Of a stretch of DNA of 34,404 nt, positions 9,587 through 13,537 are shown in pieces. Position 1 is the first letter of the stretch. Each line of letters begins with the position of its first letter. Both the position numbers and the translations under genes were made by a program. Source of the DNA: Collinsella vaginalis (GTDB lineage: Bacteria; Actinomycetota; Coriobacteriia; Coriobacteriales; Coriobacteriaceae). The notes beneath the pieces were generated by a model that was given only the letters and a program-made list of their open reading frames with translations, did no database searches and was not told the DNA's origin. Where the stretch lies: the NCBI RefSeq assembly GCF_900176655.1, contig NZ_LT838843.1, positions 439,815 to 474,218 of the forward strand, written 5' to 3'.

Positions 9587-11056
9587 ATGGTGCGGAAGCG
9601 GTTCATGCAGGGCGGGACCATGCTGGTCACGGCCATCCTGATGCTCCTCGCGGCTCTCGCAGCGCCCGTGCATGCCGCGGCAGCCGAGCTCGAGCCCGCA
9701 CCGGGCTCGGCCCTCAACGGCTCCGCCTCCTTCGGCCTCAACGGGTTCGAGCGCAATGCCAAGGGGACGGCCCGCGCCATCGACGGCCAACCTGCGGGAT
9801 ATCGGTTCCCGCTTGCCGCAGGCTCGACCCTCGTCGTCGTGCGCACGCCCGGCGGGGTCCTCGTGTGGGTCGATTCGGCAGCCGCCGCCCGCGCGGGCTT
9901 CGATCCCGCCTCCGTCGATGACCGCGCTGCGCTTACCGAGATGATCACCGACCTCGATCGCGACAGCTCGCTCGGCGGCTCGCTGCTCGCCGACGTATCG
10001 GATCCCTGGGAGTCCATCACCGAGGAGGAGGTCGTCCGGGGATCCTACACCTACCGCTTCAACGTGGCCGGCGAGGACGGCGAGCGCTATGCGACCGTCA
10101 GCGCCGCGCCGGGCACGGAGATCGCCGCGGCCGACCTCGGTGACGGGGCGCTTTGGAGCGACGATGCCCAGATCGTGCCTGCGTCTGAGGTGAGCACGCT
10201 CGCACCACCGAGCGTCCTCGACCAGGTGACGTCCTTCCTCGCCGCCATCGACTACCGGCCGCTCTGGGTTTCGGTCAAGACGAGCGGGATCGCGCTCGCC
10301 GCCTCCCTCGTCCTCGGCCTCGTGGCCGCCTGGCGCGCGTTCGGCACCTCGGGCCGGCTCAAGAGCGTGCTCGACTCCGTCTTCACGATCCCCATGGTGC
10401 TGCCGCCCACGGTCTGCGGCTTCCTGCTGCTGATGCTGTTCGGCCAGTCCACCGGCGTTGGGCGCTGGCTCATCGCCCACGGCATCAGCCTCGTGTTCAC
10501 CTGGCCCGCCGCCGTGATCGCCGCCGTGGTGGTGTCCTTCCCGCTCGTCTACCGCACCGCCCTCGGTGCCTTTGAGGGCCTGGACGCGCAGATGCTCGAC
10601 GCGGCGCGGACGCTTGGATGGAGCGAGGCGCGCATCTTCTGGCGGCTCATGATGCCGCTCGGATGGCCGAGCATCGCCGCCGGCGCCGTGCTCGCCTTCG
10701 CCCGCGCGATGGGGGAGTTTGGCTGCACCCTCTTCTTCGCAGGCAACTACGCCGGTATCACGCAGACTATCCCCATCGCGATCTACTTCGAGTGGATGGG
10801 CGGCAACACGTGGGTGGCGCTGTTCTGGGTCATCGTCGTCATCGCGATGAGCTTCGCGGTGATCCTCTTCATCAACCTCTACACGGCGCATTCGCAGACT
10901 TACCGAAGGCGCTCGGGTGTTCGCCGCGGCCGCGGTGCCGCTGCAGCTCAGGGCGACACGCTCAGCGCCGAGGCGACGGGCGGCGACGCCCTGCGCATCG
11001 ACCGCGACGCCCTGCGCGACCTCCTCGGCCTCGTCGATCGGGAAGGGGGTGCGTGA
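9587..11056 (+). CDS. modB: Molybdate ABC permease with extra extracytoplasmic N-terminal domain
   Basis: About 489 residues, twice the usual ModB length of roughly 225. The C-terminal half is a standard BPD-type permease from about residue 225: five hydrophobic segments and an EAA loop, LDAQMLDAARTLGWSEARI, followed by FARAMGEFGCTLFFAGN. The N-terminus has a signal peptide or anchor (LVTAILMLLAALAAPVHA), then about 190 non-membrane residues, rich in Ala, Asp, Gly and Ser, that should lie outside the cell. I do not recognise that domain. A hydrophilic tail of about 50 residues follows the last membrane segment. Candidate starts are ATG 9566, 9587 and 9620; 9587 is a compromise. The stop overlaps the modC start (TGATG). 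Confidence 0.85.
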   Translation: MVRKRFMQGGTMLVTAILMLLAALAAPVHAAAAELEPAPGSALNGSASFGLNGFERNAKGTARAIDGQPAGYRFPLAAGSTLVVVRTPGGVLVWVDSAAAARAGFDPASVDDRAALTEMITDLDRDSSLGGSLLADVSDPWESITEEEVVRGSYTYRFNVAGEDGERYATVSAAPGTEIAAADLGDGALWSDDAQIVPASEVSTLAPPSVLDQVTSFLAAIDYRPLWVSVKTSGIALAASLVLGLVAAWRAFGTSGRLKSVLDSVFTIPMVLPPTVCGFLLLMLFGQSTGVGRWLIAHGISLVFTWPAAVIAAVVVSFPLVYRTALGAFEGLDAQMLDAARTLGWSEARIFWRLMMPLGWPSIAAGAVLAFARAMGEFGCTLFFAGNYAGITQTIPIAIYFEWMGGNTWVALFWVIVVIAMSFAVILFINLYTAHSQTYRRRSGVRRGRGAAAAQGDTLSAEATGGDALRIDRDALRDLLGLVDREGGA

Positions 11057-12129
11057 TGTCGCTCTCGCTTGACATCAAGAAGGCGTTTCCCGGGTTCAAC
11101 CTGGATATCCAGCTCGAGGCGGGGGAGGAGCGCGTGGCCCTGCTCGGCGCCTCAGGCTGCGGCAAGAGCATCACGCTGCGCTGCATCGCCGGTGTCGAGA
11201 CCCCCGACGAGGGCCGCATCGTGGTGAACGGCGTCACGTTCTTCGACTCTGAACGCGGCGTGAACCTCTCGCCGCAGGAGCGCCGCTGCGCCCTGCTGTT
11301 CCAGAGCTACCAGCTCTTCCCGAACCTCACGGTGATCGAGAACGTCGAAGCCGGGATGGCCCGCTCGCTCACGGCTGCCGAGCGCCGCGATCGGGCCGAG
11401 CGGTGCCTCTCCATCTTTGGGATGGCGTCCTTCGGCGACCGCTACCCGGTGGCGCTTTCAGGTGGCCAGCAGCAGCGGGTGGCCCTCGCGCGCATGATCG
11501 CGGCGCGGCCGGGGATCCTCATGTTCGATGAGCCGATGAGCGCGCTCGACTCTTTCTTAAAGAACACCCTCGAGCAGAGCATGCTCGACCTCTTCGCGGT
11601 GGCCGGACGCACGGTGCTCTACGTGAGCCATGACATCGACGAGGCGTGTCGCCTTTGCGAGCGGATCTGCGTGCTCCACAACGGGCACGTGGAGGAGGTC
11701 GGCAGCGTCGACGAGGTGGTCGGACATCCGCGCACCCTCGCGGCCCTGCGTCTCACGGGCTGCAAGAACACGAGCGCCGCTGAGAAGGTCGGGCCCACGA
11801 GCGTGCGCGCCCTCGACTGGGGGATGACCTTCGAGATGGGGGAGACGGTGCCCGATGATGTCGCCTACCTGGGGATCCGGGCCTCCCATATTCATCTTGA
11901 CCGGAATAGGGACGGTTCGGGGAGGAACAGCTTCAGGCTGCATGTCGCTCGCGTGAGCGACGCCCGCTTCGAGCGCGTGGTGCTTCTCGACGCCCCGCGG
12001 TCCGACGCGCCGAGCCGCCTCACGTGGAAGGTGAACACGGCCGATGCGGCCGAGGCGGACCTGCCGCACGAGGGCGACGTGCTCGGTCTGCACTTCGATG
12101 CGAGCCGGATCCATCTGGTGAGCCGATAG
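11056..12129 (+). CDS. modC: Molybdate ABC transporter ATP-binding protein
   Basis: 357-residue ATPase that energises molybdate import with ModB. Walker A is GASGCGKS near residue 33-40, the Q-loop is in LLFQSYQLFPN near 80, the ABC signature is LSGGQQQRVALARM near 134-147, Walker B is GILMFDEPMSALDS near 154-167 and the switch histidine is in YVSHDIDEA near 190. The last ~130 residues, after the nucleotide-binding domain, resemble the regulatory TOBE/mop region of ModC. The ATG overlaps the modB TGA by one base, with GGAAGGGGG upstream, indicating tight coupling. It is the last gene of the molybdenum block. Confidence 0.94.
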   Translation: MSLSLDIKKAFPGFNLDIQLEAGEERVALLGASGCGKSITLRCIAGVETPDEGRIVVNGVTFFDSERGVNLSPQERRCALLFQSYQLFPNLTVIENVEAGMARSLTAAERRDRAERCLSIFGMASFGDRYPVALSGGQQQRVALARMIAARPGILMFDEPMSALDSFLKNTLEQSMLDLFAVAGRTVLYVSHDIDEACRLCERICVLHNGHVEEVGSVDEVVGHPRTLAALRLTGCKNTSAAEKVGPTSVRALDWGMTFEMGETVPDDVAYLGIRASHIHLDRNRDGSGRNSFRLHVARVSDARFERVVLLDAPRSDAPSRLTWKVNTADAAEADLPHEGDVLGLHFDASRIHLVSR

Positions 12130-12370
12130 CATTGTGCGTCGCCTCGGGGCGGCAGCATGGTGCGTTTCTCTGTTGGGGCTGCGCTGGACGCTGTCTACGC
12201 TTCGTTCGTGTGGCCGGAATCCATCTCTCCTGCACGCAGGGACAAGCCCGTGTGCTTGGAGCGCCTGATAGACATCGGAGGTCATCTCTCCTGCGCGCGG
12301 AGCAAGTCATTTCATGACACGGGAGGCCCCGGCGGTCATCATCGTTTTTCTCACGCGCGAAGTCGAAAGA

Positions 12371-12580
12371 TGCCGCTTTGGTACAGGTTCTCATGATGCC
12401 GATGTAAACCTCCTCAGTTTGGTACAGGTTTTCGGCGTGGGGCAATGCACACGGCGCGAAGGCAAGGCCTTTACCTGCGAGTCCCGTCCTCCGAGTCGGA
12501 ACTCTACTCGGACGGGTCGGCAAAACCTGTACCAAACTGAGGAGGTTTTCCTCCCATGCGACGAAACATGTACCAACGGC
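12371..12580. repeat. Nested inverted repeat with TTTGGTACAGGTT units
   Basis: A perfect 27-bp inverted repeat joins 12406-12432 and 12522-12548; its core is TTTGGTACAGGTTTT flanked by CCTCCTCAG. An outer, degenerate pair of the same unit lies at 12377-12389 (TTTGGTACAGGTT) and 12565-12575 (AACATGTACCA). The 89-bp interior contains its own bulged hairpin (CCCGTCC-GAGT at about 12483-12496 with ACTCGGACGGG at 12505-12515). No protein fits. It lies in the 710-bp gap between convergent modC and a minus-strand gene. It could be a MITE, a REP-like element or a structured RNA. Confidence 0.75.
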
Positions 12581-12765
12581 GCGAGATTTCCCCTCGAGTC
12601 CACAGGAGAGCGGGGAGCATGCTGGCGGCGGCCGAGAGAGGGGGCTTCGGCGGGAAGGGGGGACGGTTTTAGATTGAGTCTGCCTGCGGCCTGGAGAACG
12701 GTCTGCACCCGGGGGCGGCCATGCCACTTCTCGAGGACACGATAGTGTCCCTGCCTCGTTTTATG

Positions 12766-12839: not shown

Positions 12840-13259
12840 TTACCCGATCGCACGCTTTACGAGCTCGCGGACCCGTTCGGTCACCTCATCAGTCACCTGG
12901 TTGATGGCGTAGCTCGTGGCCCACATGTTGCCGTCATCGAGGGCTGCGCCCTCCTGGAACCCGAGCGTCCCATAGCGCACGTCGAACTTGGATGCCGGCT
13001 GGTAGAAGACGATGACCTTGCCGTCCCGCTCGTAGGCGGGGAACCCGTACCAGGTGCGTGGGGAGAGCTCGGGGGCGACCTCGCTCACCACCTGGTGCAC
13101 CATCACGGCGATGGCGCGGTCGTTCTCGGGCATGGCCTCAATGGCCTCGAGGAGCGATTCGAGCCAATCGGCCTTCTTCTTGCCCCCGCGCTCGGCGCGC
13201 AGCTCTTCGGCGCGCTGCTTCATGGCCTCCTGCTCGGCCTTGCTGAACCCACTGGACAT
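12840..13259 (-). CDS. DUF1801/YdhG-like small protein
   Basis: 139-residue soluble protein. A lysine- and glutamate-rich helical N-terminus (KAEQEAMKQRAEELRAERGGKKK) is followed by a YdhG/DUF1801-like fold with the characteristic TWYGFPAYERDGKVIVFYQPASKF near residues 72-95 and RYGTLGF near 98-104. Biochemical role unknown for the family; frataxin-like proteins are structural relatives. The ATG at 13259 has AAAGGAG upstream, and an in-frame upstream ATG at 13385 lacks one. A second, shorter DUF1801-type protein is encoded at 16362-16700. A strong terminator follows. Confidence 0.75.
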   Translation of the reverse strand: MSSGFSKAEQEAMKQRAEELRAERGGKKKADWLESLLEAIEAMPENDRAIAVMVHQVVSEVAPELSPRTWYGFPAYERDGKVIVFYQPASKFDVRYGTLGFQEGAALDDGNMWATSYAINQVTDEVTERVRELVKRAIG

Positions 13260-13537
13260 GTCGGTCTCCTTTGGTTGAGGTGTGCGGCGGTCCGCCGTCG
13301 CGTATCGGTCGATAGTGGGTTTATGCCGCGTTACGGGCCGACTAAGACCGTGTGGAGCGTGTCCGACGGAAGACGGAAACCCCACAACCGGGAAGGGTGG
13401 GCACCTTTAGGGGGAGTGCGCCTTGAAGGCCTGGGTCCCAGCCACCGAGACTCGAATAGGCGCTGACAACCTCTGACGCCACGCCTCGCGTGCGTTCATT
13501 TAAATTCGGCGCAGGGTGCACATGGGCATTCGGAACA
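13260..13537. other. Intergenic stretch without recognised gene
   Basis: No convincing coding frame, repeat or RNA is seen between the minus-strand DUF1801-type gene and the tRNA-Pro promoter. The region should contain the promoter of the minus-strand gene, which I could not place. Confidence 0.4.

Follow-up and report, generated by a model that had tools for sequence, protein, structure and literature searches.

A dyad-symmetric element located between two convergent open reading frames of Collinsella vaginalis was found to belong to a dispersed intergenic family, with at least 19 copies carrying its arm sequence (family A) and at least 10 copies carrying a sister arm (family B) in the genome of the organism itself (G000; 2,161,687 bases, 92.55% complete). 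The total of 29 elements is a lower bound. The layout and, in nearly all copies, the spacing are constant, the spacers between their arms do not covary, and in related species elements are retained at orthologous places and their arms change in a coordinated manner. On balance, the element probably acts as double-stranded DNA, i.e. as a non-coding array of arms bound by a putative protein.

The window, i.e. the whole analysed stretch of 34,404 nucleotides, had previously been interpreted from its letters alone (hereafter the sequence-only reading), and a 27-bp inverted repeat inside a degenerate outer pair had been described at 12371-12580. Both pairs were recovered. The inner repeat 12406-12432/12522-12548 was widened by a repeat search to 12401-12432/12522-12553 with 94% complementarity, and a second inverted pair of 13 nt was detected at 12377-12389/12524-12536. 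The degenerate outer pair is likewise real, the word TTTGGTACAGGTT occurring at 12377 and 12418 and, on the minus strand, at 12524 and 12565, the last with two mismatches. These four sites with at most two mismatches compare with 0.14 expected, and four sites were reached in 0 of 100 shuffles. The natural unit of 224 bp (12366-12589, unstranded), where the homology between the 19 family A copies begins and ends approximately, is slightly wider than the stretch first given.

The window element contains four 26-bp arms, two rightward and two leftward, at start-to-start distances of 41/105/41 bp. The left outer arm (12366-12391, plus strand) consists of a degenerate outer half followed by TTTGGTACAGGTT, and the left inner arm AAACCTCCTCAGTTTGGTACAGGTTT (12406-12431, plus strand) is located 41 bp from it. 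The left inner motif AGTAG (12446-12450, plus strand; columns 128-132 of the 18-copy alignment) is degenerate in this copy, and its right counterpart CTACT lies at 12504-12508 on the minus strand. Between them the asymmetric centre motif ACCTGCGAGT (12473-12482, plus strand) was identified, which is related to GACCTGCGGTTTTG of other species. The right inner arm (12523-12548, minus strand) is 105 bp from the left inner arm, measured start to start on the 12-base core word, and the right outer arm (12564-12589, minus strand) follows at 41 bp. The convergent gene arrangement originally described holds, with an open reading frame for an ABC transporter ATP-binding domain (PF00005) upstream (10618-12129, plus strand) and one without Pfam match downstream (12840-13385, minus strand). 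The same long intergenic stretch additionally carries an imperfect 23-bp direct repeat (12215-12237 and 12276-12298, 61 bp apart). In G001 (locus L108), the closest relative, the downstream open reading frame is inverted with respect to the ABC gene, and a tRNA-Pro gene is still found beyond it. Elsewhere in the window, a class A RNase P RNA is located at 2093-2458.

The search for other copies in the genome, which had been proposed from the sequence, was performed by BLAST with the 210-base unit and gave 67 matches at about 19 places in the own genome. The family counts were obtained by a scan for the arms that presupposed no spacing and that also revealed sister family B, the arm of which reads TTTGGTGTGGGTTT. 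Sixteen of the 19 family A copies have the layout 41/105/41 bp start to start; the exceptions are one copy with 41/104/41, one with three left arms and one with the inner pair only. The 10 family B elements comprise six with 41/105/41, two with 41/105 and one arm undetected, one with 41/104/41 and one with three left arms. According to their coordinates, the two families cluster, eight of the 10 family B elements being located less than 2 kb from a family A element. A rough gene call placed the 29 elements between tandem plus-strand genes (10), convergent genes (7), tandem minus-strand genes (6) and divergent genes (5), with one case unresolved; this gene call was wrong for the window copy, whose neighbours are in fact convergent, and it ran open reading frames across three other copies. 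The neighbouring genes that were checked are ordinary and without a common theme (luxS, polyprenyl synthetase, VTT domain, Rrf2, NMT1, PTS, patatin and others), and luxS is the downstream neighbour of an element in both the own genome and G028. The window copy shares 78% identity with the one at C3:121715 over the element and not past its ends, so whole elements were copied from place to place. Alignment revealed relatedness throughout for the window copy and L010 and for L021b and L023, and the remaining interiors look unrelated. Stand-alone palindromes as possible insertion targets were searched for in 211,773 readable bases of genome pieces of G000, and none was found. On contig C11 of the same genome, locus L234 contains an open frame of 1397 residues whose start looks Cas9-like by eye (FIGFDLGTGSVGWAI and an arginine-rich helix).

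For the analysis of sequence conservation 18 family A copies were aligned, the one rearranged copy being omitted. Information content amounted to 1.8 bits per base in the inner arms, 0.9-1.6 in the outer arms, about 0.3 in the 15-bp spacers, 0.5 in the interior and 0.2 in the flanks, and the only words that stand out in the interior are AGTAG, its mirror CTACT and a central ACCTG. The filler between the arms is unrelated in most copies and would matter only for its number of bases. Left/right pairing was not in surplus in the 15-bp spacers (119 versus 116.4 for permuted partners, p 0.38) or in the interior without the motif (245 versus 268.7, p 0.99), and a conserved RNA fold is therefore not supported. 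Among five regions tested in family A, covariation between left and right was seen in the outer half of the outer arm (156 versus 140.6, p 0.004; p 0.016 with Watson-Crick pairs only), and the inner arms showed a marginal surplus of pairing (p 0.042). This covariation runs against purely independent sites, and we have no firm explanation for it.

Family A DNA was not found in the other 42 genomes of the genus, the only match among 43 being the own genome. A generic pattern of the arm frame matched 4 of the 43 genus genomes (G000, G005, G015 and G028), its backward-read control none. In 395 genomes of the order the pattern gave matches in 10, with 5-10 each in G000, G005, G015 and G034 and one or two each in the other six, while the control gave one match in each of five genomes. 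A sixth bearer, G033, was spotted at one orthologous intergenic stretch. Some related species carry an equal layout with different arms, as if each had a binding protein of its own. The arm words read TTTTGGGGAAGG in G005, TTTTGGGGCAGG in G015, TTTTGGGGGAGG in G028, ATTGGGGGAGG in G034 and ATTCGGTTCAATT in G033, and the centre of most elements in these five genomes is a version of GACCTGCGGTTTTG. G034 elements have four arms at 42/104/41-42, and convergent two-arm elements at 104 or 105 bp were found in G005 (8) and G015 (7). Moreover, an everted form with arms pointing outward at 64 bp start to start is represented by two elements each in G005 (L141, L142) and G015 (L143, L144), located at orthologous places and with the same kind of centre motif between the arms. 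Without any spacing being presupposed, all 18 arms of G015 fell into listed pairs at 104/105 (convergent) or 64 bp (everted), as did 18 of the 19 arms of G005; the partner of the nineteenth has two mismatches and lies at 104 bp. According to crude gene calls, 8 of 11 elements of G005 and G028 have the 3′ end of a called gene at a distance of 16-55 bp. Outside the genus, the gap pattern gave no match in a collection of genome contigs, and an 18-mer gave 12 matches there, none with an inverted partner in the retrieved piece. Separate searches of viral contigs gave 0, 4 and 0 matches, the four being without inverted partner.

Nine of the 10 G005 elements have a G015 element at the orthologous place. 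In the seven convergent pairs the arms are identical at 315 of 336 positions (94%) and the centre at 111 of 144 (77%), compared with 209 of 387 (54%) in the ungapped spacers and 363 of 700 in the ungapped flanks. The core and spacer figures omit one pair differing by one base in length, and the flank identity is too low because flanks drift by insertions and deletions. One and the same base is changed in 16 of 18 arms (12 of the 14 convergent ones and the four everted ones), G015 having C. At 15% divergence per site the chance of such a coordinated difference would be 7e-12 in a model that is crude, since arms may exchange sequence. Six of the eight convergent elements of G005 carry two unequal arm words, which argues that the arms follow the genome consensus and not self-complementarity. 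At the junction between the ABC-ATPase and NMT1 genes, an element was found in G005, G015, G034 and G033 among 18 species, and no such inverted repeat was detected in the other 14. The centre motif of G034 and G033 at this junction is opposite in direction to that of G005, so that either a separate insertion or an inversion between the arms must have taken place. At the single site with an element in G005 and none in G015, the flanks are too diverged to place the junction, and no target duplication was seen.

Constant layout, free filler, arms that follow a genome consensus and coordinated change together are consistent with double-stranded sites recognised by a protein that acts in trans. An element has two or four 26-bp arms, the presumed recognition sites, arranged symmetrically around a short asymmetric centre motif. 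The arm distances (41-42 and 104-105 bp, and 64 bp in the everted form) are near whole helical turns, as would suit a complex assembled along one helix face. A putative sequence-specific DNA-binding protein acting in trans, either transposase-like or of the host, would bind all arms of a genome, and the arms may be joined across a bent centre into one nucleoprotein complex. Copies would spread rarely between intergenic places, by means that are equally conjectural, and would then stay put for long while their arms track the changing specificity of the putative protein. Gene conversion among arms could be an alternative source of the coordinated change.

The sequence-only reading had alternatively suggested a structured RNA acting by titration or mimicry of ribosome binding sites. 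A single folded structure was borne out insofar as the predicted fold of the 210 bases is very stable (z -7.75 and -8.15 for the two strands, reached in 0 of 200 shuffles), but the additional central hairpin is not common to the family, the interiors of the 18 copies showing no surplus of left/right pairing. A strong fold on either strand follows from the inversion of the arms. The CCTCCT and AGGAGG strings on which the suggestion was based are present at 12409-12414 and 12540-12545, both within inner arms, and the nearness of G005 and G028 elements to gene 3′ ends would also suit a role at RNA 3′ ends. Against this stand mismatched arm pairs within elements and the outcome of the covariation analysis that had been proposed as a check, compensatory changes being absent from spacers and interior and the excess confined to outer arm halves and, marginally, inner arms. 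Within the own genome the Shine-Dalgarno-like strings are limited to the inner arms of family A; neither family B nor G005, G015, G028 or G033 has them in its arms, and G034 arms have CCTCCCC. Membership in a known Rfam family was rejected, as the three window matches at gathering score include none at the element. Taken together, an RNA role at ribosome binding sites is very improbable. If the arms were bound by a host protein with a chromosome-organising or regulatory role and had no mobile origin, the rigid spacing and the long orthologous retention with coordinated arm change would be explained. Such sites would not lead one to expect occupation of one locus in 4 of 18 species, two copies sharing the element without flanks, the clustering of eight of 10 family B elements within 2 kb of a family A element, checked flanking genes without a common theme, or the lack of a clear replichore pattern in 20 GC-skew samples taken for replication polarity in G005, and we regard such an origin as rather unlikely. 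The putative protein itself may be a transposase that also spreads the element or a host protein.

A MITE-like nature, also raised from the sequence, agrees with terminal inverted repeats, dispersed intergenic copies sharing the element and not the flanks, and a locus occupied in 4 of 18 species, while no target duplication could be demonstrated. Derivation of such a MITE from an IS3-family element with the arms as its ends would suit the size and distribution, and at both places in the own genome with an IS3-like transposase tail (50% identity to an ISKpn38-type transposase over 42 residues, E 1e-4) a complete arm abuts the end of the incomplete insertion sequence (L114:3330-3570 and L123:2290-2500). 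However, an ISKpn38 end reads GGGGAGTGCGGACG, and by this comparison the insertion sequence ends at its counterpart GGGGGTGCGGACG inside the arm, which makes the arm appear as its target and not as its end. Moreover, no sequence of the insertion sequence end recurs among the elements and no target duplication was seen, so this derivation is improbable. The arms do not appear to be simply the ends of a known insertion sequence; one does abut them, and by the ISKpn38 comparison they fall just outside it. The incomplete copies suggest an insertion sequence targeting arms, in the way that, according to PMC1525189, REPs are insertion targets of the IS3-family members IS1397, ISKpn1 and ISPsy8; this likeness concerns the insertion sequence and not the arm element, and only two incomplete copies are available for it. 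An unlikely but more substantial alternative is that the elements are REPINs, the arms being REP sequences moved by a REP-associated tyrosine transposase (RAYT) that is present or recently lost. PMC3116915 describes REPINs as extragenic inverted REP pairs that differ between species, with perfectly conserved distance and less conserved spacers, and the arms described here are likewise extragenic, a pair consisting of one conserved, species-specific word in two opposite orientations at a constant spacing. RAYT-type genes (PF01797) were detected in 36 of 42 genus genomes, and by eye the REP stems GTGTCGTTTGGGG at a RAYT locus of G028 resemble the G005/G015 arms GTGTACGTTTTGGGG, so that the arms may share an origin with REPs. 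On the other hand, at an E value of 0.001 PF01797 was found in none of G000, G001, G005, G026, G032 and G033, i.e. not in three of the six bearers (G000, 92.55% complete, G005 and G033), and the examined RAYT loci of G015, G034 and G028 are without arms apart from one match with three mismatches in G028. The surroundings of the RAYT genes in G034 and G028 contain short hairpins of another type, e.g. GATGTGTAATTTGGGGTCAGACCCCAAATTACACATC. According to PMC2817692, every REP is imperfectly palindromic and carries a GTAG-type head, whereas no arm begins with GTAG and, by inspection, only the G034 arms are palindromic, those of G000, G005, G015, G028 and G033 not being full-length palindromes. Further differences are the four-arm arrays at 41 bp, the arm length of 26 bp and spacers whose bases do not pair as a hairpin between the two sides. 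As a separate observation, RAYT-type genes of the genus (L267, L269, L271, L273, L275 and L276) are flanked by short near-perfect hairpins of the GGGGTCAGACCCC or GGGACAGG type, depending on the species.

The nearest known kinds of elements are REPINs, Correia elements and BIMEs, and a literature search found no description of such elements in this bacterial group. Correia repeat enclosed elements of Neisseria are intergenic, about 100-155 bp long and have 26-bp terminal inverted repeats and an internal IHF site. The family described here resembles them in its 26-bp arms, which flank a centre motif in an element of fixed length, but its arms vary from species to species and between families A and B of the same genome, its filler is not shared, four arms are present in G000 and G034, and no TA duplication was demonstrated. 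In the BIME and RIB elements of enterobacteria, palindromic units in inverted orientation flank a protein-binding site, frequently near the 3′ end of a gene; in the family described here most species have arms that are no hairpin units, and spacing and centre differ. REPs bind DNA polymerase I, gyrase and IHF, as stated in PMC1525189.

As an extension of the protein-bound arm array favoured here, it is possible, although doubtful, that a protein of fast-changing specificity maintains about 9-30 helically phased, dyad-symmetric assembly sites per genome. These sites would keep their positions through species splits, all their arms would change in step with the protein, and the DNA in between would be constrained in length only. 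REPs and Correia repeats are usually recognised by their conserved sequence, whereas here the arms turn over between species and the geometry (41, 104-105 and 64 bp) persists, so that the family escapes sequence-based searches. The G005/G015 pair, with nine shared sites and one coordinated base change, offers a natural experiment on the joint change of protein and site. If true, the proposed maintenance of sites by such a protein would be a case of genome-wide co-evolution of a bacterial binding protein and its sites, based on a nucleoprotein complex not yet described.
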